Source: Pseudomonadota bacterium
GTDB lineage: Bacteria; Pseudomonadota; Gammaproteobacteria; Burkholderiales; Chitinibacteraceae
Direction: 5' to 3'
NCBI GenBank assembly: GCA_026399755.1
Contig: JAPLQI010000043.1
Location: 1 to 44,233, forward strand
DNA: 44,233 nucleotides
A program made the position numbers and the translations under genes. The notes under the pieces were generated by a model. The model was given only the letters and a program-made list of their open reading frames with translations, was not told the origin of the DNA and made no database searches. Of the stretch, positions 1-22,176 are shown one piece after another; the stretch's first letter is position 1; each line of letters starts with the position of its first letter.

Positions 1-120
1 CTAAAACTGGCACTGAATGAGCTATGCAAAGCAGTGATTTACTTCGACCCTCATGCAAAAAAAGATCGCCCCAAACACCCTAAGCCGCATGATTTTACAG
101 CCTATAAATCAGGGGTTTGA
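1..120 (+). CDS. 3' end of an unidentified gene (39 codons visible)
   Basis: An open frame runs from the first base of the window to a TGA at 118-120, giving a 39-residue C-terminus that ends HDFTAYKSGV. It is rich in Lys, His and Pro and has no domain I can name. The sequence upstream is outside the window, so start and length are unknown. A transposase C-terminus is possible, given the accessory look of the next 6 kb, but nothing in the sequence proves it. It could also be a chance open frame, since 39 codons is short. Confidence 0.4.
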   Translation, partial: LKLALNELCKAVIYFDPHAKKDRPKHPKPHDFTAYKSGV

Positions 121-415
121 GCTTAAGATGATAGGATTGGGGTTGAGGGGAGAGGGATTGAAGGGGCTTTGAAAAGGCAATTAATCTGCGAAATATTAGG
201 CTGATTAATATATACCTCATGCAGATTCACCCTAAGGCAAAAGCTAAGTGATTAGGATTGAGGTAAAACCCGCGAGTAATGCTGAATAAATACGTGAATT
301 TCACCCTAACTACGATATTTATAATGAGGCTGAACAAGTAGCATAATCAAGCCTAACTCTTCAACAATTCAATCCATATTTAAATCCAACAAACAACTGA
401 TTACACGAGCAAAAA
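121..415. other. Intergenic stretch with decayed repeats
   Basis: I see no gene here. A stretch at about 121-150 (GATAGGATTGGGGTTGAGGGG) is, in reverse complement, closely similar to 19424-19457. A decayed copy of repeat family A lies at about 253-309. No convincing promoter for the following acetyltransferase gene was seen. Confidence 0.5.
253..309. repeat. Decayed copy of palindromic repeat family A
   Basis: The string AAACCCGCGAGTAATGCTG followed by AATAAATACG and then TTTCACCCTAA matches the reverse orientation of the intact copy at 22117-22176, which reads AAACCCGCGAGCCATGCTC then AATAAATACG. Both arms have lost the perfect GGGCGGGTG sequence, so the copy would no longer form the long hairpin. 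Confidence 0.6.
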
Positions 416-835
416 ATGATTTTCAGACTTGCCACACTAGCCGATATCCCCGCTCTATCCAAAATACGCCTCGCCGTGAAAGAAAACACACTTTCTGACC
501 CCACGCTAATCAGCAGCGCGATGTATGAGCAGTATTTACTGCATGAGGGTAAGGGATGGCTTTGCGAAATAGAGGGGAAAACGACTGGCTTTGTCATTGC
601 TGCCTATCCAGATCATTCAATCTGGGCACTATTTGTGCTACCTGAATACGAGGGAAGAGGAATTGGAAAGCAGCTATTAAATCTAGCAATAGATCATTTA
701 TTTACCATGGGTGCTACAGAAATTAAATTAAGCACTACGCCTCATACCCGAGCAGATCGTTTTTATGCACAGCAGGGCTGGCAACGAGGCATTGAAAATA
801 AAGAGGTCGCGTATTTATTAAAGCGATCAATATAA
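416..835 (+). CDS. GNAT family N-acetyltransferase
   Basis: The 139-aa product has the GNAT acetyltransferase layout: an N-terminal beta strand starting MIFRLATLADIPAL, then motif A with the acetyl-CoA pyrophosphate-binding loop EGRGIGKQLL at about residues 78-87, and a C-terminal FYAQQGWQ segment typical of motif B. Such enzymes move an acetyl group from acetyl-CoA to an amine; the substrate here cannot be told. The length is normal for a single-domain GNAT. The ATG at 416 has only a weak upstream GAG. The gene stands alone, with a convergent gene 28 bp downstream on the minus strand. Confidence 0.85.
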   Translation: MIFRLATLADIPALSKIRLAVKENTLSDPTLISSAMYEQYLLHEGKGWLCEIEGKTTGFVIAAYPDHSIWALFVLPEYEGRGIGKQLLNLAIDHLFTMGATEIKLSTTPHTRADRFYAQQGWQRGIENKEVAYLLKRSI

Positions 836-863
836 ATACGTCTAAAGAAGTGGTGCAAGGCAT

Positions 864-1472
864 TTATGCTTTTTTACGCAGATTGCCTTGTGCTTTTTTA
901 CGAGCAATCGCATTCATTCTACATTCCCTTTGCGAATCAGCTCGCTCACGTTTGTTCGCGCGTGGCTCTTTATATCTAACACCAAGCATGGACAAACACA
1001 TCGCGCACCCCAGCAAAAAAATTAAAATACTAAATAACAGCAGCCCAATACTTTTAATGGCATGCAACCACCACGGATGCTGATCAAAACGTGTAAACAC
1101 CACCGATGGATTAAATGATTGATACGCAACGCTCAACGTATCGCCAACAGAATATGCGGCCCATTGTTCCTGTTGCTCAGACAATGTATCAGTACGACTG
1201 GACTGATACTCTCCGCTATAGGCTTGATGCGCTACAAAATAACGGTAGTTAACTTGAGCATGAAATAATGTTTTGCTCTTATGCTTGGATGAAACAAAGT
1301 CAATTTTTTCAATAACCGCCGTTGTCTGCGGCCAATACTGGCTTTGATAAGCCTGCCACTGAGAGTAGCCATAAATAAATGAAAAATAAATAGCAAAGCC
1401 CCCTACTACAAAAGTAGCAATTGAGACCATAGAAACATAAAGACCCAACACGCCTTGTCTATTATTCTTCAT
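864..1472 (-). CDS. DUF3592-type membrane protein
   Basis: The 202-aa protein has one membrane segment at about residues 12-32, a soluble beta-rich segment of about 100 residues, a second membrane segment at about 140-165, and a very basic tail. A segment beginning WPQTTAVIEKI after the first helix, then VNYRYFVAHQAYSGE and the Y-VGDTLSVAYQSFNPS stretch, is the pattern of the DUF3592 family, whose function is unknown. The basic tail (RKKAQGNLRKKA) is unusually long. The gene lies convergent to the acetyltransferase and 70 bp downstream of another small minus-strand membrane protein gene. The family call is from pattern recognition only. Confidence 0.7.
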   Translation of the reverse strand: MKNNRQGVLGLYVSMVSIATFVVGGFAIYFSFIYGYSQWQAYQSQYWPQTTAVIEKIDFVSSKHKSKTLFHAQVNYRYFVAHQAYSGEYQSSRTDTLSEQQEQWAAYSVGDTLSVAYQSFNPSVVFTRFDQHPWWLHAIKSIGLLLFSILIFLLGCAMCLSMLGVRYKEPRANKRERADSQRECRMNAIARKKAQGNLRKKA

Positions 1473-1542
1473 AAGGTATCAGCGTAAAAATCATTAATTA
1501 GCATAAATTAAAACACCACATTACTCTAAAAACAAATTGACA

Positions 1543-1848
1543 TTAAGGCTGGACAGATCGAGTCGATTTATACCGATTAAATAGAATTTTCCAACCTTTA
1601 ATTGCCCCATAAATACCCATAAAAAGAATTCCACCGCCCATCAAGAGAATACCAAAAATCATGCCCACAAACGAGCCAGAAAAGCCCTGAATAATTGCCA
1701 TGGGAATTTCCATAGGCAGCCAAAAAGGAGGCCAATCACTCACTATTAGCATATAAGCACAACCTAGCCACAGCAAAGAACTAAGTACAAACATGATTAA
1801 GCCAGAAAAAGGAAAGTCCAACACCGAATCAGGAATGGAATACTTCAC
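1543..1848 (-). CDS. Small hypothetical membrane protein
   Basis: The 101-aa protein has hydrophobic segments at about residues 15-37 and 45-82, the second Gly/Met-rich and probably two helices, with a short basic C-terminus. I do not recognise the family. The start is GTG at 1848, supported by AAGGA seven bases upstream. It may be cotranscribed with the DUF3592-type gene that follows. Both products are small membrane proteins, but no functional link can be read from the sequence. Confidence 0.6.
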   Translation of the reverse strand: MKYSIPDSVLDFPFSGLIMFVLSSLLWLGCAYMLIVSDWPPFWLPMEIPMAIIQGFSGSFVGMIFGILLMGGGILFMGIYGAIKGWKILFNRYKSTRSVQP

Positions 1849-2112
1849 GAAAAATCCTTAAATTTGCAATAAAAACATTAACAATCACCCTTCTCCTCTA
1901 AAAAAACAAACGAAAGAAGAATATGCCTTTTGTAATTCTAGTGAAATCCACGTTTTATTTAGATATATTACCTTATTACGAGTAAGTACCACCTATAGGC
2001 AAAAGCATCTACGCCCTATGCCTCCGTGATTCAAGATTTGGGTTTTAGTGTATCTCAGCAATTAAATTGTTAAAATTGGCATACCTCTTCAATCACCCCA
2101 AACAAAGCCTCC

Positions 2113-2709
2113 ATGCCCACCCTCTACCTCATCCACGGCTATGACGCCGCGCCTTCAAACCACTGGTTTCCTTGGCTGTAAGATCAACTCGCAAAGCTTG
2201 GCGTGGCTTGCCATATTCTGGCGCTGCCCAACTCCAGCCAACCAAACTTAAACGCTTGGCTGGATAAAATTGAGCAAAGCGTGGCGGTGCATGATGAGGA
2301 TGTTTATTTTGTGGGGCATAGCTTGGGCTGCATTACGGTGCTGCGCCATTTGGAGCAGATCAATCAAGCCATAGGCGGCGTGGTATTGGTGGCGGGATTT
2401 GCCGAGGATGTGCCGCTGTTGCCGCAGCTGGATGAGTTTACAGCGCTGCCATTAAATACCGCACATCTGCGCCAGCGCATTAAGCAGCGCTGCGTGATTG
2501 CTGCGGATAACGATGCCACTATCCCTTTTGCCATGACTGAATCGCTTAGCCAGCAGTTGGATGCGCGGTTTTTAATCGTAAAAAATGGCGGGCATTTCTT
2601 GCTGGGCGAGGGCTTTGATACCTTGCCGGTAGTGCTGGAAGAATTACGTTGGATGTTTCAAGCCAATGGGCTTAAGAGCCTAGGCCTGCCAATTCAAGGT
2701 TACAAATAG
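2113..2709 (+). pseudogene. Nonsense-mutated copy of the RBBP9/YdeN-like serine hydrolase gene
   Basis: From ATG 2113 this sequence is nearly identical to the intact hydrolase gene at 6354-6953 over about 550 bp, but codon 23, CAA in the intact copy (6420-6422), is TAA here (2179-2181). The frame stays open afterwards to a TAG at 2707-2709, keeping the nucleophile motif GHSLGC and the GGHFLLGEG histidine motif, so decay looks recent. Restart at GTG 2203 would lack the N-terminal HG oxyanion motif and has no ribosome binding site. The two copies diverge over the last 15 or so codons and in their upstream sequence. Readthrough or sequencing error cannot be excluded. Confidence 0.85.
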
Positions 2710-3208
2710 TCAGCAATCACACGCTTACCCCACACATCCGTAAGACTTTTAAATGATATTACCTCGACCCATCGCAAAAATAGTCGTCCAGCAATATAAA
2801 GCCCCCTTTACTCCAAACTAAGCCTTTTCGGACTGAATTTTTTGCGCCTTAAGCCGGATAAAAACCGCAGTTGCTTCCCTATTTTATATAAGTGAAGCAG
2901 TAATCAGGCCCTGAACAAATACCTCTACACCTCCATTTTATTTTTGCGCTTAGCCATCATGGCTTGCTACTACGGCCTCTTGCCAAGGTATTAACTGCAA
3001 GCTAAACCGCCGCTTATCTTGCTTCAAACATCCCCCCCCCCCAAAAAAGCTACCTCCTCCTTACCTCATACCCCCCAGCTCAAGAACAAGACTTATTTTT
3101 TTCACATTTATCCAATGCGCATCGTCTTCTTACTAAATCCTGTCTCAAGTCTTATTTCATAAAAATTAAATCGACAGGAAATCACCAACTCACGTAAAGA
3201 GACGCAAT
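2710..3208. other. Gene-poor stretch with an 11-C homopolymer
   Basis: No supported gene was found in these 499 bp. The stretch contains an uninterrupted run of 11 cytosines at 3032-3042, followed by AAAAAA, and several AT-rich segments that could hold the promoter of the sigma factor gene at 3209. No clear -35/-10 pair stands out. Confidence 0.5.
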
Positions 3209-3904
3209 ATGGGGAAAAAACTGAGCAATCAGCAGCAACGCTGGGGCAATGCTTCAGAGCAAGAGCTGCTTATAGCCCTTGCCAAGCACAATGAAGGTGC
3301 ATTTGAAGAGTTTATTGCTCGCTATCGCAGCTATCTGCAACATCTGTGCAATCGTTTTTGCTCAGGCAATAGCGAAAATAGCAAAGATTTATACAGCCTT
3401 GTCATTCTCCATATCTATACAGAATCTCCATTCAAATTATCGCAAATTCGCCACCTAGGGGGCTGGCTGCGTCAGCTTACCAAAAGTAAGTTCATTGACC
3501 AGCAGCGCTGGCTTAATGCAGAAAACCTTCGGCTTCAGCTACACCATAAAGAAACCGACCATCAACAAAACAGGCCCGTTTCACCTGAAAATGAGGCCCT
3601 CAGTGAAGAGTTGCTCAAACAAATACAAGAGGTATTTCAGGCTTTACCTGCAAATTTACATGAAGTTGCCTATTACCGTTTTGTTGAAGAAATGCCTTTC
3701 AAAGAAATAGCCCAGCTATTAAAAATCAGTGACGCACTGGCACGCAAACGTGCGCAGCTAGCCCGTGACCTACTGAAACCCGCTCTTTGGACTTACGTGA
3801 ATATTGCGATTCAGGGTGATCATATAAATAACACTGAAAAACCTGCCACCGAACAATATGAGTACGAGACATACACAGCCACATTTTTTGATCCACTTGC
3901 ATAA
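3209..3904 (+). CDS. ECF-like RNA polymerase sigma factor
   Basis: The 231-aa protein has a sigma-70 region 2-like part at about residues 18-100 (ALAKHNEGAFEEFIARYRSY, then GGWLRQLTKSKFIDQQRW). A region 4-like helix-turn-helix follows at about 143-190 (ALPANLHEVAYYRFVEEMPF, then KEIAQLLKISDALARKRAQL). This is the layout of extracytoplasmic-function sigma factors, which direct RNA polymerase to a small set of promoters. About 40 extra residues follow region 4. No recognisable anti-sigma gene lies next to it. The four genes downstream on the same strand are natural candidates for its targets. The ATG at 3209 has an AAAGAGA stretch upstream. The sigma call is fairly secure; the target set is inference. 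Confidence 0.75.
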   Translation: MGKKLSNQQQRWGNASEQELLIALAKHNEGAFEEFIARYRSYLQHLCNRFCSGNSENSKDLYSLVILHIYTESPFKLSQIRHLGGWLRQLTKSKFIDQQRWLNAENLRLQLHHKETDHQQNRPVSPENEALSEELLKQIQEVFQALPANLHEVAYYRFVEEMPFKEIAQLLKISDALARKRAQLARDLLKPALWTYVNIAIQGDHINNTEKPATEQYEYETYTATFFDPLA

Positions 3905-3991
3905 ATGGGTGCTACGCGCAATTCCGGCTCAATCATTATTTAATACCTTTAAAATTATACTGATAATACTTCCTAATAAAGAGGAGTAATA

Positions 3992-4141
3992 ATGCTTGAA
4001 TTACGGATTAATTATGCAGCCTTGAGCGAAGCTCTAATTGAGCTTAAACATTTAAAAGAAAAAGGGTGGACTTTATATTTCAGTGCTGATGGACTAGAGA
4101 TAATTGCCCGTAAACGTTTTTTATTTTTCGACCAGCCATAA
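3992..4141 (+). CDS. Small hypothetical protein, 49 aa
   Basis: ATG at 3992 follows a strong Shine-Dalgarno GAGGAG (3981-3986) with five bases of spacing, and a 49-codon frame runs to TAA at 4139-4141. The product starts MLELRINYAALSEALIELKH and ends ARKRFLFFDQP. It mixes an amphipathic helix (residues 8-24) with a predicted beta pair (WTLYFSADGLEIIARKR). It has no signal peptide or membrane segment. It lies 87 bp downstream of the sigma factor gene on the same strand, so a regulatory partner of that sigma factor is a possibility, but nothing in the sequence proves it. Confidence 0.6.
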   Translation: MLELRINYAALSEALIELKHLKEKGWTLYFSADGLEIIARKRFLFFDQP

Positions 4142-4323
4142 ATAGGAATTTTGGAATCCACGCCATGTATTTTACTTACACCACACAATGCCTTCCTCTC
4201 ACAAAAAACAAAAAACGTATTTATTATAAAAATGCGATGTAATATATCTAGATGTAGTCAAAAAAAAACATTCACAAAACCAAAGCCAGCAACGTCTTAT
4301 TAACAAGGGAACAATATATAAAT

Positions 4324-4803
4324 ATGAACACAATAAAAACAACAAAATTCGATAATTTCCTCACTGGGTTCAAATTGGTTTTCATATCTAAGAGTATTCA
4401 TTCAGACAAAAGAGTAGAAGAATTTGCAGAAGAAATAAGCAACAACGCCATGACATTTGGCAATGAATTTGCAAACAAGCTACACGAAACACATACAAAT
4501 ATTATATGCACTCCTGCTGGCAATCACATTGTCTTAAGCATACAGGAAACGAAACACAGAAAGTCAGCATACATAAGCGTAAATAAAGCAAACACCTATT
4601 CATCAGACAATAGAGGCTATTCAGGCACTTTTTCCACAAATCTACTAATAAGAACACATAATAATCTACCTATATATCAATTTATTCCTGCAATAAGCTG
4701 GACATGCAATGAATGCGCAATAAAGAGGAGACTGCGAGTAGTGAATACATCCCCCATACCTAAAGAAGGCCAGAATATGGAAATACCATTGGATAACTAC
4801 TAG
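4324..4803 (+). CDS. Hypothetical protein, 159 aa, AT-rich
   Basis: The frame opens at ATG 4324 after AAGGGA about a dozen bases upstream. The product is hydrophilic, rich in Asn, Thr, Ile and Lys, without signal peptide or membrane segment. A CNEC (CxxC) pair lies near residues 127-130, with another Cys near residue 61. I do not recognise the family. The base composition is clearly more AT-rich than the flanking hydrolase copies, consistent with transfer. It sits in line between the 49-aa gene and the RhiA-like gene. Confidence 0.55.
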   Translation: MNTIKTTKFDNFLTGFKLVFISKSIHSDKRVEEFAEEISNNAMTFGNEFANKLHETHTNIICTPAGNHIVLSIQETKHRKSAYISVNKANTYSSDNRGYSGTFSTNLLIRTHNNLPIYQFIPAISWTCNECAIKRRLRVVNTSPIPKEGQNMEIPLDNY

Positions 4804-4933
4804 CGGCCACTTAAATCAATAATAAATCATAAAAATTTTCATCTCACATTTTTAATACCAAGGAGAAACACAGAAACAGACACATCCTATTTATTAATCA
4901 ATTGTACTTTTCCAAACCCCTGAAGGACATACA

Positions 4934-5542
4934 ATGACTGCCTATACTCTTTCGTTTCAGAACAACTCCAGTAACGCCGCCACCGCTTGCGTTTACACCA
5001 CAGCGCCTGATATTGGCGTACCTAATGTAATGTCCCTGGCATGGCTGACTAAGCCATCCCACCCAACGACCCGATTAAATTTTGATTGGAATATTGATTA
5101 CAGCCTTGTTTGGTCAGAAAACGGGGATCTTAAACCAGGTGCCACTTTCGAAGCATCCCAAACATGGGCGGTTGATCCGCACGGGGAAAATGCCGTATTA
5201 CTGACTTATGACGAACACGGCTATACCTTTACCAATAAATCAAGCGCAGCTCCGGCCGGCTCACTTATCGTTAAACAAAGCTCGAGCGTGCCATTACGCA
5301 AAGCATCGGTTGGGGTAGGTATCTCTGGCCAGCCTGCTTTGGCTGTAGAGGCACAACCCAATATCCATCTCGTATTTACACCTCATCCTACGTACTGGAT
5401 CACCTTTGGCAGCTATGAAGTAGGTGAAGTGCTGGATCTGGAAGAAATTTCTGATTCATTTGAAATTGATTATCCAGCCAATGTTTATTCAGCTGTAGTT
5501 ACTCTGGATATTAACAACCAATGGAGCGTGGATTACAAATAA
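4934..5542 (+). CDS. RhiA-like protein
   Basis: The 202-aa product starts MTAYTLSFQNNSSNAATACV and is beta-rich throughout. Further on it has VMSLAWLTKPSHP, FDWNIDYSLVWSENG, VGVGISGQPALAVEAQPN and TPHPTYWITFG. From memory this resembles the rhizosphere-expressed RhiA protein of Rhizobium leguminosarum, an abundant quorum-sensing-controlled protein of unknown biochemical role. There is no signal peptide, so it is probably cytoplasmic or exported by a non-Sec route. The start is supported by AAGGA about eight bases upstream. A perfect 15-bp hairpin lies four bases after the stop. The family assignment needs a database search. Confidence 0.6.
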   Translation: MTAYTLSFQNNSSNAATACVYTTAPDIGVPNVMSLAWLTKPSHPTTRLNFDWNIDYSLVWSENGDLKPGATFEASQTWAVDPHGENAVLLTYDEHGYTFTNKSSAAPAGSLIVKQSSSVPLRKASVGVGISGQPALAVEAQPNIHLVFTPHPTYWITFGSYEVGEVLDLEEISDSFEIDYPANVYSAVVTLDINNQWSVDYK

Positions 5543-5545
5543 TCC

Positions 5546-5578
5546 GCGCAATAAATAATTTTTAATTATTTATTGCGC
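5546..5578 (+). terminator. Perfect 15-bp hairpin after the RhiA-like gene
   Basis: GCGCAATAAATAATT (5546-5560) is separated by TTT from its exact reverse complement (5564-5578). The stem is AT-rich apart from its GCGC base, and no T-run follows on the plus strand. It is therefore not a textbook terminator; it may be a partial terminator or an mRNA-stabilising 3' structure. Confidence 0.45.
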
Positions 5579-5676
5579 CAGGTGATAAAAGTCCGGTGAC
5601 ATTTGTTGCCGGACTACCAGCACCACTACCAAAGAACATTGGCATTTTAAAATTATTATTAAAAAAGGATTTAATC

Positions 5677-6105
5677 ATGGCTAGCCAAAAAAAATTATTA
5701 ATCACCTGCAAAAAAAACCCATCACTTGCCGATGAAACAGCGATGGAAATTAATAATGATCCAAACTTTGCAAAAAAAATGGCAAAAGCCATTAATGAAA
5801 ATACAAGCCTAAAACTCAGAGCAGAATATAGGGATGACAACAACAAATTACTGGTACTTTCATCAGCATTAAACTCAGAACCAAGATTAGTTACTACCTC
5901 ACAGGAAAGCCATGGGGAAACCGAAGCAGTTAATTCTGGAGGAACAGATTTCGTGATTCAGATCGTGGGCAGTGTTATTTCAACCCTAATTTCTGCAGCG
6001 ATTCTGTATGCATTCAATCAATGGGCCACAAATCAACAACAAGCTCAGCAAGCCGTCGTTGAGGAAAACGATATTGAAATGCCGCTGAGAGGCAATCAAC
6101 GCTAA
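5677..6105 (+). CDS. Hypothetical protein with a C-terminal membrane anchor, 142 aa
   Basis: I chose ATG 5677 because AAAAGGA sits about seven bases upstream; an in-frame GTG at 5596 would add 27 residues but has no ribosome binding site. The product is a hydrophilic, Lys/Asn-rich segment of about 100 residues. A single hydrophobic segment (FVIQIVGSVISTLISAAILY) follows at about residues 102-121, and then a short Gln/Glu-rich tail. This is the layout of a tail-anchored or single-pass inner membrane protein. I do not recognise the family. It closes the cassette that begins with the sigma factor, and a strong terminator follows. Confidence 0.55.
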   Translation: MASQKKLLITCKKNPSLADETAMEINNDPNFAKKMAKAINENTSLKLRAEYRDDNNKLLVLSSALNSEPRLVTTSQESHGETEAVNSGGTDFVIQIVGSVISTLISAAILYAFNQWATNQQQAQQAVVEENDIEMPLRGNQR

Positions 6106-6137
6106 CTTATTGATGTTCCATATAAAAATATATTAAA

Positions 6138-6180
6138 AATAAACCGCCTCGGCTATTCACATGGCTCAGGCGGTTTATTT
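6138..6180 (+). terminator. Rho-independent terminator
   Basis: AATAAACCGCCT (6138-6149) pairs with AGGCGGTTTATT (6168-6179), giving a 12-bp stem with an 18-nt loop, followed by a T-rich tract. It closes the sigma factor to 142-aa protein gene set. Confidence 0.75.
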
Positions 6181-6353
6181 ATTACAGGATTACAGAAAGA
6201 TGCTGGCCGTTTTTTTGCACTCCTTTTTGTGATCCGGCTGCATCGTTGTTTTTTTAATGAAACATAATCCCTGGCGCAGTTTGCTCCGGGGCACCTGTGG
6301 TTTAAGATCTTTACTGCGTAAAATCTGAAATTAAACAGACAGGATTGCCCACC

Positions 6354-6953
6354 ATGCCCACCCTCTACCTCATCCACGGCTTTGACGCCGCGCCTTCAAA
6401 CCACTGGTTTCCTTGGCTGCAAGATCAACTCGCAACGCTTGGCGTGGATTGCCATATCCTGGCGCTGCCCAACTCCAGCCAACCAAACTTAAACGCTTGG
6501 CTGGCTAAAATTGAGCAAAGCGTGGCGGTGCATGATGAGGATGTTTATTTTGTGGGGCATAGCTTGGGCTGCATTACGGTGCTGCGCCATTTGGAGCAGA
6601 TCAATCAAGCCATTGGCGGTGTGGTATTGGTGGCGGGATTTGCCGAGGATGTGCCGCTGTTGCCCCAGCTGGATGAGTTTACAGCGCTGCCATTAAATAC
6701 CGCACATCTGCGCCAGCGCATTAAGCAGCGCTGCGTGATTGCGGCGGATAACGATGCCACTATTCCTTTTTTCCTGACTGAATCGCTTAGCCAGCAATTG
6801 GATGCGCAGTTTTTAATCGTAAAAAATGGCGGGCATTTTTTGCTGGGCGAGGGCTTTGATACCCTGCCGGTAGTGCTAGAAGAGTTACGCCGGATGTTTG
6901 AGCGGGCCAACGCTGAAATATCCGGCAAGCCCTCATCTGTTAACCCACATTAA
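6354..6953 (+). CDS. RBBP9/YdeN-like alpha/beta serine hydrolase
   Basis: The 199-aa product has an alpha/beta hydrolase fold of the RBBP9/YdeN type. An early LIHGFDAAPSNHWFPWL motif carries the oxyanion-hole HG at residues 8-9. The nucleophile elbow GHSLG puts the serine at residue 70, the acid is D134 in ADNDATIPF, and the catalytic histidine is H161 in NGGHFLLGEG. All triad residues are present, so it should be an active esterase-like enzyme of unknown substrate. Length is normal for the family. ATG 6354 is preferred to TTG 6345 because AGGA (6341-6344) is well spaced only for the ATG. A disabled near-identical copy lies 4.2 kb upstream. Confidence 0.85.
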   Translation: MPTLYLIHGFDAAPSNHWFPWLQDQLATLGVDCHILALPNSSQPNLNAWLAKIEQSVAVHDEDVYFVGHSLGCITVLRHLEQINQAIGGVVLVAGFAEDVPLLPQLDEFTALPLNTAHLRQRIKQRCVIAADNDATIPFFLTESLSQQLDAQFLIVKNGGHFLLGEGFDTLPVVLEELRRMFERANAEISGKPSSVNPH

Positions 6954-7072
6954 TTGGTGCTCACATTATTTAAATGCACGATGGCTGGCCTCTCCATTAC
7001 GCCGAATGTTTCTCGAACGAGCCGAAACACTCGCCTCAAGCCCCAACTCTATCAACTTAAGCATCTGTAACG

Positions 7073-7135
7073 TAGGAGTGGCTTTAGCCGCGAATGTCTT
7101 TGTACGCAGCGCTTTCGCGGCTAAAGCCACTCCTA
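7073..7135. repeat. Palindromic intergenic repeat, family C
   Basis: The 22-base arm beginning TAGGAGTGGCTTTAGCCGCG (7073-7094) is exactly repeated in inverse at 7114-7135, around a 19-nt loop. The motif resembles the GTAGGAGCGGCTTTAGCCGCG repeats I know from Pseudomonas and relatives. Only one copy is in the window. It lies between the hydrolase gene and the convergent cytochrome gene, where it could also end transcripts from both sides. Confidence 0.8.
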
Positions 7136-7190
7136 GGAAAACGCCACATTTTCCAGCCTTGCTGAGTTGACAGTATTACTTCAACCCCGT

Positions 7191-8666
7191 TTAAGGCAAC
7201 TTCACCCGCATCAGTTTACTTTTACTCTTTTTAGATTGAGTCGCCGGATTGCTGGCCTCACTAAACAAGAATGAATAATCACTCGCCAAGGTTTGCTTTT
7301 GCCCTGCTACCGTCGCCCCTGTATGGCAGCTCAGACAGTTAATATCCTGATGGTAGGTTTCCAATACCGTATTCGCCACGGGCTGCTGGGCGACGGGGGG
7401 CTGGGCATTGCCATCGGGCAACGGTGAAGTCGCACCGGGGTAGATAGGGGTATTGCTATTGGGCCACAGCACATTCACCAGCTGGTAATTCAGAAATACC
7501 GAACTAGGATTAGCCGCTTTAATCGTGGCCCAGGTATTGGTATTCAGGGCGGCGATATTATTGGCGGTGGTATTGCTGATCGGCGTAGTACGCACTACTT
7601 GCACCGGCGCATCATAAGGATCTGTACCCACCACCGGCATTTTATTTTGCACACATTTGTAGTAATCCGTCGCCGGATTACAGTTTAGGTTGAAATAGGT
7701 ATACCAAGGTAAGGGCGGCGCGCTTAGCTCATTTTTGCTGGGCGCATTATAAACATGCTCAAAGGTGCTCCACATAAACTGCTGAGCATTGGGTGTTTTG
7801 CGAATAATATGCAAAGCCACTAAGCCCACAGTCACCTGCTTGGGCGTGGTACTGCCGCCGCCTGTAATCGGGTAACTCACCCATGCCTTGGATGTTTTAA
7901 ACATCGGCCATAGCGTGGGGTCATCCAGCTCTATCCATGCCGCCTTGATTTCAATTGCGCCCACCGTGCCATAAGTGGAAAACGTTGCAGAGCCATCGGG
8001 CAGATTCAGCCCCTGTGTGGTGGCAAACGCGGGCTGCTTGTTGGCGATATACAGCTGATTCTGATTGATATAGTTGTACTCATCCTGATTAAGCCGCTTT
8101 TCAAACAGGGTGACGTAATTATTCATTTTGGGCTGAGCCGTCAGCCACGCACCATTGGTACCCGCCTCGGCAATGTCTTTTAAAGGCGGCACAGGGGCGT
8201 CGGCAAATTTAGACGTCTGATACAAGCCCTTCACCCCCTGCGTCGAAGTGGCTTTAAGAGTTTTACTCTTCATAAAAGCGCGCATCGCCAGCGGTATATC
8301 CTGCTTGTTCGCCCATGGCAAAGGGGGGGCACCATTGGGGCGAAACACCTCGGATGATTCTTTGTAACTTTCCCAGACCACAGGACTAGTCGTGCCTGCA
8401 ACTCCAAAAGCGGAAGCAGGCACGCCAGTATTTGGCTGCCCCGGTAAATTGGGGTCTGCCGCCCAATTAAGCGTTATAAATTGTTGCCATGCCAGATTAT
8501 TGAAAGCGTTTTGATTGGTGCCGAGTGAATCGCAAGGGATAATCGGCTGCAAAACCGGCACGCCAGCCCACGATGGGCAAGCGGCCTGAGCCGAGCTGCA
8601 AGCTAACAAAACTCCCACTCCAACGCCGGTATAAGCGGACACCCGCCAACGATTCAATAAGCGCAT
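7191..8666 (-). CDS. Exported cytochrome c-type protein with one haem motif
   Basis: The 491-aa protein begins with a Sec signal peptide (basic MRLLNRWR, hydrophobic core to LLACSSAQAA). It then has a long domain without recognised motifs apart from NNLAWQQFITLNW and VVWESYKESSEVF, and a single haem c-binding site CLSCH at residues 444-448, about 45 residues from the end. Haem attachment implies a periplasmic location. Its start is well supported (AAAGGGG six bases upstream of ATG 8666). It follows the 702-aa gene by 25 bp on the same strand, so the two are probably cotranscribed and act together, perhaps with the cytochrome accepting or donating electrons. Their substrate is unknown. Confidence 0.7.
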   Translation of the reverse strand: MRLLNRWRVSAYTGVGVGVLLACSSAQAACPSWAGVPVLQPIIPCDSLGTNQNAFNNLAWQQFITLNWAADPNLPGQPNTGVPASAFGVAGTTSPVVWESYKESSEVFRPNGAPPLPWANKQDIPLAMRAFMKSKTLKATSTQGVKGLYQTSKFADAPVPPLKDIAEAGTNGAWLTAQPKMNNYVTLFEKRLNQDEYNYINQNQLYIANKQPAFATTQGLNLPDGSATFSTYGTVGAIEIKAAWIELDDPTLWPMFKTSKAWVSYPITGGGSTTPKQVTVGLVALHIIRKTPNAQQFMWSTFEHVYNAPSKNELSAPPLPWYTYFNLNCNPATDYYKCVQNKMPVVGTDPYDAPVQVVRTTPISNTTANNIAALNTNTWATIKAANPSSVFLNYQLVNVLWPNSNTPIYPGATSPLPDGNAQPPVAQQPVANTVLETYHQDINCLSCHTGATVAGQKQTLASDYSFLFSEASNPATQSKKSKSKLMRVKLP

Positions 8667-8691
8667 GGCAAACCCCTTTAATAAAAAATGA

Positions 8692-10800
8692 TCAGGCCGG
8701 AATAATATTCAGCAGCGCCGACATAGGTGCTTGCACCGGATCACCATAATTGGTCAACGTTAAGCCGCGTAAACCCAGCTCAGCATTTGCGCCCACACTG
8801 ACTTGTAAATTTAAGGAGGCGCATTGGGATGGATAAGAATTACCCGGCACGGCGTAATTCACGTTGTCGTTAAAGTTACTCACCACTACGGTAATATCCG
8901 GCCCAAAATCCACCGCGGGCAACTGCCCCTGTGGCCCCAGCTGCGCCGTGGTGCAGGTCAGCACCATAGAAATATTGCTTTGCCCAAGCCTTGCAATCGG
9001 TGCAATCAGGGTGGAATTGCTCGCCAGTGAAATCGGCGTATTCATTGGATTGCTGACTTGGGTATTAAAGTAAGCATTCCAAATGGCCGAGTGAAACAGC
9101 TGTAAAGGCTGGGCATAATCTGGCGGCACGGGGGTCGCTGGCGGTGTTACACCTGCGGGTGGGGGTAAAACGCAAGCTTCATTGGCAGGCGCAGCCGAAA
9201 CCTGTATCGGGCGCGCCCACAGGCCAACCGACATTTGCTGGGTAAGCTGGCCGCCCCACTGAATGGGTTCCCCCGCTGCATCGCTGATATCGCCTATCGT
9301 AAATGACACGCCCGCTGCCACCCAAGATTGCGGCAACTGAAACACCGCATGCAGCACAAAATTGCCGCCGTTTTGTGGCGACGCGCTCGTTGCGCCAAAC
9401 AACATACCGGTGACCGGATCGGTTAATTCTGCCGAGCCGCGCACAATCTGCCAGCAATCCTGAGCCGAAGCACCTGCTGGCAGTTTTGGATCTGCAGGCA
9501 AGGTAAAGCCACTTAAATCCGGCACTTGGATATACAAGCCGGTTGGGTTTGCTAATGCGGCCTTGCAGGGAAAGCCGGTTAACTGCCCACCAATTGCCTG
9601 ATTCACCGATTGCCCGATATGCGGATCGCTATTGCGATAGGCCTGCCCGTATTGCGCGCAGCAAATCAGCGTTTGCGGCACGCTATTGCCGCAATTACGC
9701 TGAATGGTGGCGCCGCCTGCCAAGGCCATTTCTGTTTGCAGGGTATTTGGCGTGCTGGTCAGGTGCATTGCACCGCCATAATTACTGCTGCCCCCACGCA
9801 CGGCAACGGGGCCACTATTCCATTTGTTCAGCGGGTTATACGCTGGGCGGCCTGTTGAAGGATCTGTCACCACGGCTTTTGTGACCGGATCAAGCAAATA
9901 CAAATCACCAACCGGCACGACCACCTGAGCTAAGGCTGGCGCGCCAAAACTAAGGGTGGATGAATACACATCGGCCACTTTTTGCGGATCGATCATCCAT
10001 AGCGTGTTCCAGTATTCTGGGTTTTCGCAGGTCATATCAATGCGGGTGATTTTATCGCTCTGCGGATCGCGCACTACGCTCCATTCGCAATACTCATCCT
10101 GCCAGCCACGCGGGCCATAAGGGCCGTACATATGCAGATCGCTATTCCAAGTAGCCTGCGGGCAAAGCTGGGTGGGGATATTTTGGAAAGCAGGGATAGG
10201 CACTTCGGTGCTGCCATATTGGTCAGCAATCGCAAATAGCTGCTTAGACGAATAGTTATAAGGATTTGCAGGGTAAGCACCCTTGCCCAGATATTGGCTG
10301 AGGCGGTTTGGAAAAGCCGTCCAATGAATTAAAGCCGCCGTTGCGGCACTGGGAATGGTGGTGAAATTAGTATCGAAATAAGACGTTTGATTGCTGGCAT
10401 ACAGCAAGTTCCACGGGTCGCCCATAATGGCTTGCGCGGTAAAACCACTGATATTGGTATTCCATTGCAGGCAAGTAGCATCGTTTTGTGCTGAATCGAC
10501 GGGGAAATCATTAATAAATGCGGGCGTATTAAAAACCACTTTCTGATAAGAATCGCATTGCGGTGCGCTGCCATACCAAGGCTGGCCGGAGAAAAACGCG
10601 GCGTCTCCTGGGCTAAAGCTGTGGCCATTGGTCAGCACCATATTCTGACGGCAATAAAAAAAGAAGCTGATTTCAGCATTTTGCGCAGCATAAACCTGAG
10701 CGGCCTCCACGCTACCGCAGGCTTTGGTCCCTATCCAATTAGCCCAGTTGGCTTCTTGGTATTGAGCGACATTATTCGTTTTAATCCAGGTGTTTTGCAT
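8692..10800 (-). CDS. Large cysteine-containing protein of unknown function
   Basis: From ATG 10800 the product is 702 aa; GGAG (10807-10810) is six bases upstream, so this start is better than TTG 10812 or ATG 10803. It is rich in Asn, Gln, Pro and aromatic residues and has many Cys, including a vicinal pair in LICCAQYG. Striking stretches are YGPYGPRGWQDEYCEWSV followed by RDPQSDKITRIDMTCENPEY near residues 228-266. No haem motif, signal peptide or membrane segment was found. It is probably the first gene of an operon with the exported cytochrome. If the partner is periplasmic, this protein would need an unconventional exit route or an annotation of a different start. I do not recognise the family. 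Confidence 0.6.
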   Translation of the reverse strand: MQNTWIKTNNVAQYQEANWANWIGTKACGSVEAAQVYAAQNAEISFFFYCRQNMVLTNGHSFSPGDAAFFSGQPWYGSAPQCDSYQKVVFNTPAFINDFPVDSAQNDATCLQWNTNISGFTAQAIMGDPWNLLYASNQTSYFDTNFTTIPSAATAALIHWTAFPNRLSQYLGKGAYPANPYNYSSKQLFAIADQYGSTEVPIPAFQNIPTQLCPQATWNSDLHMYGPYGPRGWQDEYCEWSVVRDPQSDKITRIDMTCENPEYWNTLWMIDPQKVADVYSSTLSFGAPALAQVVVPVGDLYLLDPVTKAVVTDPSTGRPAYNPLNKWNSGPVAVRGGSSNYGGAMHLTSTPNTLQTEMALAGGATIQRNCGNSVPQTLICCAQYGQAYRNSDPHIGQSVNQAIGGQLTGFPCKAALANPTGLYIQVPDLSGFTLPADPKLPAGASAQDCWQIVRGSAELTDPVTGMLFGATSASPQNGGNFVLHAVFQLPQSWVAAGVSFTIGDISDAAGEPIQWGGQLTQQMSVGLWARPIQVSAAPANEACVLPPPAGVTPPATPVPPDYAQPLQLFHSAIWNAYFNTQVSNPMNTPISLASNSTLIAPIARLGQSNISMVLTCTTAQLGPQGQLPAVDFGPDITVVVSNFNDNVNYAVPGNSYPSQCASLNLQVSVGANAELGLRGLTLTNYGDPVQAPMSALLNIIPA

Positions 10801-11111
10801 CATTTGCTCCAATTAAACAGGGCATACAAGGAATGCCACCCCTCTAAAAATGGAATAAAGGGGGGCGTGGTGGTGCAAGCACCGGAACCAATACCAACAA
10901 AAATCGCGAATAGCCCATCAAGAGCGCATGGCTGGATATGATGGCAAAGGGGCTCGCTAAATAAGTGGAATCAATATAGTTTGAGCACCTCAAGCCGCAA
11001 TGGAATATTTAATTATAAGACAGCCTAAAAAAATATATACGTAAGTATATTGACAAGTAAAGCAAGAATAACAATGAGATAAAAAATCCATCTTACAAAA
11101 AAATGGCCCAA
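10801..11111. other. Intergenic stretch without a supported gene
   Basis: It lies between the start of the 702-aa protein gene and the terminator of tpiA. It is AT-rich at 10990-11100 and should hold the leftward promoter of the 702-aa gene, but I could not pick out a convincing -35/-10 pair. Confidence 0.4.
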
Positions 11112-11149
11112 AAAAAATCCGCCAGAGCGATGCACGGCGGATTTTTTTT
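11112..11149 (-). terminator. Rho-independent terminator after tpiA
   Basis: AAAAAATCCGCC (11112-11123) pairs with GGCGGATTTTTT (11136-11147) around a 12-nt loop. There are T-runs on both strands, so it can work in either direction. It ends the leftward glpD-tpiA transcript. Confidence 0.8.
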
Positions 11150-11166
11150 GAGCAAAAAATGAGATA

Positions 11167-12045
11167 TTAAATATTGGCAGCCCTATAGATGGTGAGCAGA
11201 TCATCGACGTTTAACGAGGCCCCACCGACCAATCCACCATCAATATCGGGCATAGCAAAAAGTGATGCGGCGTTGTCGGCTTTTACGCTGCCGCCGTACA
11301 AAATAGTCACCGACTCGGCCCATGTGGGTGAAAACGTCGCTAATTGATGGCGTAAAAATGCATGCACGTCTTGCGCCATTTCTGGTGTGGCGGCAAGGCC
11401 TGTGCCAATGGCCCAGACCGGCTCGTAAGCAAGTACAAACATGGCGTTTTTTTCCATAAGCGGCAAAATAGCGTTCAGTTGCTCAGCCAATACCGCCTCT
11501 GTTTGGCCGGATTCTCTATCGCTCATCAGCTCACCCACGCAAACAATCGGGATCACGCCAGCGGCAATACACATGGCAGCTTTCACTGCGACGGTTTGAT
11601 TGCATTCGCGGTGGCGATCTCGGCGCTCGGAATGGCCAACAATGGCGTAGCGGCAGCCTAGCTCGGCCAGCATATCGGCCGACCATTCGCCCGTGCGTGC
11701 GCCGTGGGTGACGTCGGCGACATCTTGCGCACCATAGTGCACTCTGGATCGGCTCTCTAGCTCCTTTGCACCCAAGTGCACAGATTCACCCGCTACTTCA
11801 CCAGCACCATAATGCACGCCTGAGCGGCCGGCCAAGCGCCCTACTTCCCCCAGATAAGGCGCGGGAGGGCACACCACCAGCTCTACACTATCTATGACTG
11901 CAGCAGATAGGCGCGGTAGGCTTTCGCGGCACAAAGCCAAATTGCCAAACATTTTCCAATTGGCTACCACCATTTTGGCGCGCGGCGCGGCTAAATTAAC
12001 TGGGCAGCTGATGGTTGCATCCGGGCTATCTATTGTTATTTGCAT
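11167..12045 (-). CDS. tpiA: Triosephosphate isomerase with N-terminal extension and internal triplication
   Basis: The enzyme interconverts dihydroxyacetone phosphate and glyceraldehyde 3-phosphate. The 292-aa product has every catalytic element: N29 and K31 in VVANWKMFGN, H138 in VGHSERR, E208 in AYEPVWAIGTG with the flexible loop 6, and the phosphate-binding GGSV and GGAS motifs. Typical family length is about 250. The excess comes from some 24 extra N-terminal residues and from about 25 extra residues (77-101) formed by repeated VHYGA/VHLGA units before strand 3. ATG 12045 is chosen because AAAAGGA is seven bases upstream; GTG 12048 is the alternative. The ribosome binding site overlaps the glpD stop region, so it is translated with glpD. 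It is likely a second, glycerol-dedicated isomerase, which is inference. Confidence 0.93.
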   Translation of the reverse strand: MQITIDSPDATISCPVNLAAPRAKMVVANWKMFGNLALCRESLPRLSAAVIDSVELVVCPPAPYLGEVGRLAGRSGVHYGAGEVAGESVHLGAKELESRSRVHYGAQDVADVTHGARTGEWSADMLAELGCRYAIVGHSERRDRHRECNQTVAVKAAMCIAAGVIPIVCVGELMSDRESGQTEAVLAEQLNAILPLMEKNAMFVLAYEPVWAIGTGLAATPEMAQDVHAFLRHQLATFSPTWAESVTILYGGSVKADNAASLFAMPDIDGGLVGGASLNVDDLLTIYRAANI

Positions 12046-22027: not shown

Positions 22028-22116
22028 AAATAAAAATTAAAAGTTCTGCAGGCACAGAGCTAATAAGAATACAGAGCACATAGAAAAATCCTTAGTTTGG
22101 CTGGTATGTGGCATTC

Positions 22117-22176
22117 GTAGGGCGGGTGAAACCCGCGTATTTATTGAGCATGGCTCGCGGGTTTCACCCGCCCTAC
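22117..22176. repeat. Palindromic repeat family A, copy between kbl and tdh
   Basis: A perfect 21-base arm starting GTAGGGCGGGTGAAACCCGC (22117-22137) faces its inverse (22156-22176) around an 18-nt loop. It is the best-preserved copy in the window. Confidence 0.92.

Follow-up and report, generated by a model that had tools for sequence, protein, structure and literature searches.

Between two copies of a hydrolase gene, the window (the whole stretch of 44,233 nucleotides that was analysed) carries what is probably a cassette, exchanged at a variable site of the Iodobacter chromosome and controlled by an ECF-type sigma factor that it encodes itself; we put the probability of this reading at roughly 0.7. 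The new element is a promoter-like pair of the form TTCACA-N16-CGTC in the cassettes, which recurs before relatives of the sigma factor in a genome of another order (G564) and, as TTCAC(A/G), in Azospirillum. Sequence is enough here to name the sigma factor gene along with its putative promoter and putative targets.

An earlier sequence-only reading of this DNA had described five genes on one strand between the hydrolases, and the five ORFs (3209-3904, 3992-4141, 4324-4803, 4934-5542 and 5677-6105) were all found on the + strand. It had also proposed asking whether these genes co-occur: all five stand together in three of the eight other Iodobacter genomes (G029, G032 and G035), each time before a single hydrolase. 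G029 holds a second, partly decayed cassette without a hydrolase, in which the frames of the 49-aa and 159-aa genes are broken and the sigma factor and RhiA-like genes are open. The dN/dS of each of the five ORFs against relatives was 0.04-0.30, so they look like real genes, and the window ORFs are under purifying selection; for the 49-aa and membrane protein genes dS was 1.5-2.1, at which synonymous changes are near saturation.

Sigma factor gene and its candidate promoters

The sigma factor gene (3209-3904, + strand) encodes a protein of 231 aa with sigma2 and sigma4 regions. The sigma-70 family model TIGR02937 matched it over positions 31-190 (E=1.5e-16) and Sigma70_r4_2 scored above its cut-off; Sigma70_r2 was weak and below its cut-off (E=0.016). 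As a short protein with sigma2 and sigma4 and without sigma1 or sigma3, it falls within the ECF (sigma-70 group 4) factors, as the earlier reading had supposed, and its C-terminal tail of ~40 aa carries no recognised domain. No anti-sigma family was detected among the cassette proteins scanned, which agrees with the earlier description of a sigma factor without an anti-sigma gene. The relative in G564 is 40% identical over 186 aa, and G564 is the only one of four genomes of its order to have one. Phage records gave two weak matches (24-29%) and plasmid records 14 weak matches, none covering 80%; PHROGs gave general sigma matches, and viral contigs contained no relatives of the sigma profile. 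A literature search on the Azospirillum sigma locus returned nothing related.

Two predicted sigma-dependent promoters, P1 (3101-3126) and P2 (4271-4296), both on the + strand, have the form TTCACA-N16-CGTC. The CGTC of P1 lies 82 nt from the sigma factor start codon and that of P2 lies 27 nt from the 159-aa gene. The element precedes both genes in all five cassettes, in each of which P1 would provide the bipartite promoter with a CGTC-like -10 that is expected before an ECF factor's own gene. Furthermore, the second G029 cassette retains the -35, spacer length and -10 that P2 has in the window, while the spacer DNA on either side aligns poorly.

Across nine genomes, the pattern TTCACA-N12-RCAHCGTC gave 12 matches, ten of which are the P1 and P2 of the five cassettes; the two off-cassette matches equal in number those of the reversed control (2). 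All seven matches to a stricter -10 pattern lay in cassettes (control 4), with none in the five genomes that have no close sigma relative, and a spacer of 17 in place of 16 gave one match in the nine genomes, off-cassette (control 2). Since the motif was first spotted by eye in the cassettes, and these also served to fit the patterns for the whole genus, the genus-wide count is partly circular; the independent tests of the motif are G564 and Azospirillum. At the G564 locus there were three exact sites against 0.048 expected, a number reached in 0 of 1000 shuffles, starting 233 nt ahead of the sigma ORF and 75 and 68 nt ahead of two further ORFs. In Azospirillum, TTCAC(A/G)-N16-CGTC stands at the equivalent place before the related sigma gene in seven of seven records, which were judged by their neighbours to be one locus. 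Five other sigma matches all lacked it. The window itself contains two exact sites against 0.053 expected (4/1000 shuffles reach two); with one mismatch tolerated, its three sites against 1.75 expected are no excess. These observations support an autoregulated sigma factor with a predicted regulon confined to its own cassette, and a promoter-like pair that is almost exclusive to the cassettes lends weight to the earlier suggestion of a small dedicated regulon.

The predicted system resembles ECF41, for which PMC3426412 gives the promoter TGTCACA-n16-CGTC and local targets. The n16 spacer and the CGTC -10 are the same, whereas the -35 elements TTCACA and TGTCACA share only TCACA; the predicted targets are likewise confined to neighbours of the sigma factor gene, and no anti-sigma gene was seen. 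However, the ECF41 factors described there have a large SnoaL-type C-terminal extension in place of the short tail found here. The SnoaL domain was absent among the seven Pfam matches up to E=1, and none of the ECF41 targets (carboxymuconolactone decarboxylase, oxidoreductase, epimerase) was recognised among the cassette proteins. Thus, the cassette sigma factor probably works like ECF41 yet would be no member of it, having neither the SnoaL domain nor a typical target gene. Several groups of ECF factors without an anti-sigma partner are said, in PMC8999054, to be still unstudied.

Other genes and RNA elements of the cassette

The 49-aa protein (3992-4141, + strand) has no family match. Its dN/dS is 0.05-0.09 and GAGGAG stands ahead of the ORF, in keeping with the strong ribosome binding site previously ascribed to it. 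The 159-aa orphan (4324-4803, + strand) is AT-rich, as had been noted, with a G+C content of 35%. It gave the single weak match (E=0.014) when seven proteins were compared with anti-phage defence systems using PADLOC, a result that does not place it in such a system. Its structure prediction (mean pLDDT 37.2) was too poor for use, and an N-terminal domain in common with the membrane protein, which seemed alike by eye, was rejected on a profile comparison probability of 1.2. A conserved AAGGAGAA (4860-4867, + strand) has no start codon close behind it, and the RhiA-like gene lies 66 nt downstream.

The RhiA-like protein (4934-5542, + strand; 202 aa) shares 96-98% identity with its counterparts in the other three main-locus cassettes. 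Among the 20 records listed of 46 plasmid homologues, identity was 35.3-44.8% over 95-99% of the query, which places it in the RhiA family; several of these are annotated as protein rhiA, and the best among the matches listed is a Rhizobium sequence (44.8%), so the earlier naming of this gene holds. The RhiA of Rhizobium leguminosarum is likewise a protein of ~200 aa. In Rhizobium, the gene can be followed by rhiB and rhiC; a comparison of the window proteins and the GH18 proteins of the relatives with the CB782 locus, which has rhiB and rhiC, gave nothing at E 0.1. Five RhiA-like loci elsewhere (three from Rhizobium, with G376 and G196) have no other cassette genes nearby, the sigma factor gene included, and RhiA therefore appears to be independent of the sigma switch. 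The rhiR gene is of the LuxR type. PMC2275737 describes RhiA as a very abundant cytoplasmic protein of Rhizobium of unknown function, and a title that it cites has rhiR as required. Relatives of the RhiA-like protein were found neither in viral contigs by profile nor in phage records, a PDB sequence search with its profile gave 0 matches up to E=1, and a literature search returned nothing joining RhiA, chitinase and a sigma factor. Its structure prediction (mean pLDDT 36.4) was also too poor for use.

Two hairpins (5546-5578 and ~5590-5615, + strand) lie between the RhiA-like and membrane protein genes. This spacer has a more stable fold than its shuffles in all four main-locus cassettes, the first hairpin being clear in three of them (window, G032 and G035) and the second also in three (window, G029 and G032). 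The 142-aa protein that follows (5677-6105, + strand) has its best hydrophobic stretch at residues 92-110; the ATG at 5677 was used as its start, and the listed ORF opens at GTG 5596. The membrane protein of G035 had one weak PHROGs match (E=0.0041), to a family of unknown function. At the cassette end, an inverted repeat (6137-6180, + strand) follows the GH18 gene in G029, G032 and G035. The strong closing terminator claimed earlier survives in part: the hairpin is real, but the terminator scan left it unscored on the + strand. Rfam at gathering scores found nothing in positions 1-12000.

In G029, G032 and G035 the cassette includes a GH18 chitinase gene, which the window lacks. The GH18 protein of these three relatives aligns over 504 residues with Chi1 of the Yersinia entomophaga toxin complex (4a5q, E=2e-133), the closest among PDB chains, a likeness by sequence alone. 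It has no evident signal peptide by eye, and its PHROGs matches are weak ones to tail proteins.

Proposed switch and alternative readings

The sigma factor is proposed to read both promoters: from P1 it would express its own gene together with the 49-aa gene, and from P2 the 159-aa, RhiA-like and membrane protein genes and, in the relatives, the GH18 chitinase gene. With positive autoregulation and no anti-sigma gene seen, the cassette would act as an on/off switch, which may be restrained by the 49-aa protein, by the sigma factor's own C-terminal tail or by a signal acting upstream. The hairpins after the RhiA-like gene could let the RhiA-like protein exceed the products of the genes behind it. 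This model predicts two starts per cassette, one of them at the sigma factor gene, and none or few elsewhere. If true, it would add a further case of an ECF factor working without an anti-sigma partner and, beyond the rhizobia, supply a regulator of a RhiA-type protein; with hardly any sites outside the cassettes, the small pair of sigma factor and promoter would also be a candidate for an orthogonal part in synthetic circuits.

More tentatively, these factors may form an undescribed ECF branch that occurs in Iodobacter, in one or more other orders of its class and in the alphaproteobacterial genus Azospirillum, with TTCAC(A/G)-N16-CGTC ahead of each factor's own gene and control mainly over adjacent genes. 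In Iodobacter, such a factor might turn on an exchangeable cassette of effectors (the RhiA-like protein, the chitinase and the membrane protein) in all-or-none fashion, in part of the cells and without an anti-sigma factor, with the 49-aa protein as brake.

A more specific role, which we consider rather doubtful, is the release of a chitinase that lacks a signal peptide, by a programme made up of the RhiA-like, membrane and GH18 genes that the sigma factor turns on in a few cells. The closeness of the GH18 protein to Chi1 and the signal peptide missing by eye fit such a role, and an autoregulated sigma factor gene without an anti-sigma partner could be bimodal; bimodal regulators of comparable chitinase or toxin-complex release in Serratia marcescens and Yersinia entomophaga are described in PMC10847048. 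However, neither the window proteins nor three proteins of G035 (the 154-aa, membrane and GH18 ones) showed a recognisable holin, endolysin or spanin family, the window itself has no GH18 gene, and a 319-aa gene occupies the GH18 place in the second G029 cassette.

It is unlikely that the segment is an ordinary cargo region, with a decaying ECF regulator among unrelated hotspot neighbours and a motif that is inherited DNA and no working promoter. The variability of the site among genomes, the partly broken second G029 cassette and the absence of the relatives' GH18 gene from the window would suit this explanation, but it sits poorly with the purifying selection on the window ORFs, with the retention of P2 amid poorly aligning DNA, and with the recurrence of the element in G564 and Azospirillum.

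Hydrolase copies and the variable site

Conserved cassette DNA starts left of the sigma factor gene, clearly at ~3085 and weakly at 2908. Within the left flank (2908-3085, + strand), positions 2908-2963 are weakly collinear with DNA upstream of the G029, G032 and G035 cassettes (69-74% over 54-58 nt, with single E-values of only 0.06, 0.73 and 9), and 2659-2907 had no convincing match in the ten loci compared.

The two near-identical hydrolase genes described around the segment are present as a direct repeat (2108-2658 and 6349-6899) with 95.8% identity across 551 nt. The right copy (6354-6953, + strand) is open, encodes 199 aa from an ATG and is the resident anchor of the site. The Ser_hydrolase family PF06821, of the RBBP9/YdeN type, matched the right copy and the post-stop part of the left copy (2113-2709, + strand), a pseudogene. 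The left copy was said to have been killed by one nonsense codon: the in-frame TAA (2179-2181, codon 23) is there, but past 2658 the sequence departs abruptly from the right copy and the 3' end is a different one, so this copy is more than merely stopped.

The proposal that the cassette arose by the hydrolase duplication is not supported, nor is the duplication supported as its normal state, since in the relatives a cassette stands beside a single hydrolase and the second one of G029 has none. The hydrolase gene also occurs without the cassette, and the cassette-free site with a single hydrolase that had been anticipated exists in G031 and G033 (one intact copy each). DNA upstream of the left copy (2051-2112) matches G031. 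The bracketing of the cassette by two hydrolases is incidental; the duplication looks like a lineage-specific recombination that set two forms of the variable site side by side, and it would record the joining of a cassette-bearing and a cassette-free form. The hydrolase would be a resident neighbour outside the sigma system.

Recombination between the directly repeated copies, at 95.8% identity, could delete the cassette, but it is highly improbable that they mark the functional ends of a mobile unit: single hydrolases stand beside the G029, G032 and G035 cassettes and none beside the second G029 cassette, so these independent copies do not have the same repeats at both ends; cassette-free G031 also differs in other genes left of the hydrolase; and nine window proteins scanned included no integrase or transposase family. 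As for an integration site, no tRNA was found in the window.

On the other side of the hydrolase, a convergent 491-aa gene (7191-8666, - strand), present in eight of nine Iodobacter genomes, serves as a site marker. The dS of the sigma factor gene is 0.70-0.90, against 0.40-0.47 for the hydrolase and 491-aa genes, and this higher value fits a presumed exchange of the cassette between lineages.

The sigma factor cassette and its relatives

The window is contig C134 of the 4.9-Mb genome G000, which probably belongs to the genus Iodobacter. Five genes, encoding a sigma factor, a 49-aa protein, a 159-aa protein, a RhiA-like protein and a 142-aa membrane protein (5677-6105), lie on the forward strand and are enclosed by a direct repeat (window span 2108-6953). 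The ECF-like sigma factor gene claimed for this interval by the sequence-only reading was assigned to the ECF type by Pfam and NCBIfam (3209-3904, forward strand), and neither database gave a convincing family for the other four proteins. The RhiA-like identity proposed for the 202-aa product of 4934-5542 (forward strand) was upheld by tblastn, which matched 46 plasmid records (40 from Rhizobium), with identities below 60% throughout.

Sigma factor matches were found in 12 of 43 family genomes, with close matches (76-100% identity) only in the genome of the window (G000) and its relatives G029, G032 and G035; the remaining eight had 21-28% identity. The RhiA-like protein is present in the same four genomes (4/43). 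G029 holds two copies of both genes, bringing the total to five cassettes in four of nine Iodobacter genomes. The gene order in G032, G035 and the first G029 copy is sigma, 49-aa, 159-aa, RhiA-like, membrane protein, GH18, one hydrolase and a 491-aa gene, and the five genes therefore co-occur in relatives as anticipated. The 524-aa GH18 gene, located between the membrane-protein gene and the hydrolase in these three relatives, has its best PDB matches in Chi1 of Yersinia entomophaga (4a5q, 3oa5; E ~2e-133) and is absent from the window. Close to one end of contig C42 there is a GH18 remnant of ~50 residues with 82% identity, and we infer that the window lineage formerly had this gene, in this cassette or elsewhere in the genome.

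Each cassette gene tested had a dN/dS of 0.04-0.30. The dS from the window was 0.70-0.90 for the sigma gene and 0.40-0.47 for the hydrolase and 491-aa genes; compared with its surroundings, the cassette appears to be older or to have been exchanged more. The dS of main-locus RhiA-like genes was only 0.22-0.31, approximately one third of that of the adjoining sigma gene, which suggests that the RhiA-like gene was shared more recently by exchange of that gene alone. Codon constraint alone does not explain this low value, given that the second G029 RhiA-like gene has a dS of 0.89.

Putative promoters and a proposed confined regulon

The enduring finding is that a sigma factor, a pair of promoter-like sites and a putative confined regulon can be identified directly from sequence. 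Alignment of the five cassettes revealed two like blocks, TTCACA-N16-CGTC, upstream of the sigma gene (P1; 3101-3126, forward strand, ending 82 nt before the start codon) and the 159-aa gene (P2; 4271-4296, forward strand, ending 27 nt before the start codon). These are the sole exact matches in the 44 kb window; with one mismatch allowed there is no excess (3 sites, 1.75 expected). Across nine Iodobacter genomes, TTCACA-N16-CGTCNNMYTA gave seven matches, all in cassettes (reversed control, four), and zero in the five genomes lacking a close relative of the sigma factor. TTCACA-N12-RCAHCGTC gave 12 matches (reversed control, two), of which 10 were the P1 and P2 sites of the five cassettes and two lay within long ORFs of G035 and of G030, which has no cassette. 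Both patterns were drawn from the cassettes themselves, and independent tests in other bacteria thus weigh more.

Sampling 369 genomes of the class gave just one further sigma match at E<=1e-15, in G564, from another order (40% identical over 186 aa). Its 20-kb locus contains the exact element three times on a single strand, with starts 233 nt ahead of the sigma ORF and, for two further ORFs, 75 and 68 nt ahead, a count reached by 0/1000 dinucleotide shuffles. Behind the sigma gene of this locus (L098, 11339-19541) are ORFs of 1066, 236, 206 and 221 aa; the first two have no Pfam match, the 206-aa ORF matches a Tse2-type family below threshold (E=0.019), and the last two are each preceded by the same element. 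On Azospirillum plasmids, a scan allowing one mismatch and spacers of 15-17 found TTCAC[A/G]-N16-CGTC in 7/7 records (one exact, six with a single mismatch), which look like one orthologous sigma locus. The element lies 148 nt before one common position, the annotated start in five records; in the other two the annotated start lies 93 nt upstream and 156 nt downstream of it, respectively. The same scan found it in none of five other sigma matches (Phyllobacterium, Rhodococcus and three rhizobia, the rhizobial start being only estimated as there was no gene table). The next Azospirillum genes are patatin-like and alanine racemase genes, and the targets therefore differ from those of the Iodobacter cassette. 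The same element precedes sigma relatives in two distant groups.

P1 would drive the sigma and 49-aa genes, and P2 the 159-aa gene and everything behind it. Given that TTCACA-N12-RCAHCGTC has no further match in the cassettes, P2 would also have to serve the RhiA-like, membrane-protein and GH18 genes. In the four main-locus cassettes, the spacer between the RhiA-like and membrane-protein genes is more stably folded than all 200 of its shuffles (z -4.1 to -6.9); this does not hold for the spacer that follows the second G029 RhiA-like gene (z -1.6; 12/200 shuffles). The first spacer hairpin is clear in the window, G032 and G035, and the second in the window, G029 and G032. These hairpins might favour the RhiA-like product by protection or attenuation. 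RhiA of R. leguminosarum is described as abundant, cytoplasmic and of unknown function (PMC2275737).

The cassette sigma factor is proposed to work like ECF41, which has the promoter TGTCACA-n16-CGTC, detectable targets only among its neighbouring genes and a C-terminal extension with a regulatory role (PMC3426412). However, two ECF41-defining features, the SnoaL-type extension and the typical target gene, are missing. Sigma factors with extensions and without an anti-sigma factor are covered in a review (PMC8999054), and the cassette sigma may belong to a published ECF group. The chitinase release programme that operates in a few cells of Yersinia and Serratia (PMC10847048) is an attractive but speculative parallel.

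Hydrolase copies and the variable site

The direct repeat comprises 551 nt (2108-2658 and 6349-6899; 95.8% identity), bearing out the earlier description of a near-identical hydrolase pair: the left copy is interrupted in frame by TAA at 2179, the right is open, and Pfam assigned Ser_hydrolase to the right copy and the remainder of the left. A hydrolase match occurs in 9/9 Iodobacter genomes (two in G000), as a single full-length gene in G029, G031, G032, G033 and G035 and as remnants only in G028, G030 and G034. The predicted empty site with one intact hydrolase and no cassette was found in G031 and G033, although the G033 contig ends ~1.5 kb upstream of the hydrolase, leaving its left side out of view. 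Left of the G031 hydrolase are acetyltransferase-like and DUF3592 genes, which are also found left of the window's left copy, with a 188-aa gene in between. Window 2051-2112 matches G031 and 6137-6352 matches cassette-bearing genomes; therefore, the window looks like both site forms, cassette-free and cassette-bearing, set in a row. Window 2908-2963 is weakly collinear with cassette-bearing genomes, and 2659-2907 has no convincing match among the ten loci compared.

At nucleotide level the two copies are 96% identical to each other versus 75-88% to those of other genomes, and their informative differences point in both directions; this closeness may stem either from a closely related source or from gene conversion at a later stage. 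The bracketing hydrolases, once proposed as the route of cassette origin or loss, are a side story, given that G029, G032 and G035 carry the cassette beside one hydrolase.

The 491-aa gene was found in 8/9 Iodobacter genomes. It has a CxxCH haem motif by eye and adjoins a 706-aa gene (together 7191-10812, reverse strand) here and in all seven other site loci holding it; Pfam gave nothing for either up to E=1. An inverted repeat (7073-7135; REP-like by eye) with perfectly matching 22-nt arms, 19 nt apart, lies between the hydrolase and 491-aa genes. Window 11167-44212 contains ordinary genes, judged by eye from the starts of translations only, which we take to be tpiA, glpD, glpR, glpK, glpF and glpT (glycerol use), kbl/tdh, guaB, recA/recX and rnr, and presumably a chaperone-usher fimbrial cluster at ~29.3-34.3 kb.

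The second cassette of G029

The second G029 cassette (locus L026), near what is presumably a guaA-like gene, has open sigma and RhiA-like reading frames. Its 49-aa frame contains a stop and lacks an ATG where the start aligns, and the 159-aa gene is matched in pieces only. Behind the RhiA-like gene, a 319-aa gene (8979-9935, reverse strand), with no Pfam or PADLOC match, replaces the rest of the cassette; by eye it adjoins an apparent partial guaA repeat. An intergenic repeat of 54-89 nt (81-82% identity) occurs at window 262-350 and 22115-22168 and, near this second cassette, at 13561-13649 of L026.
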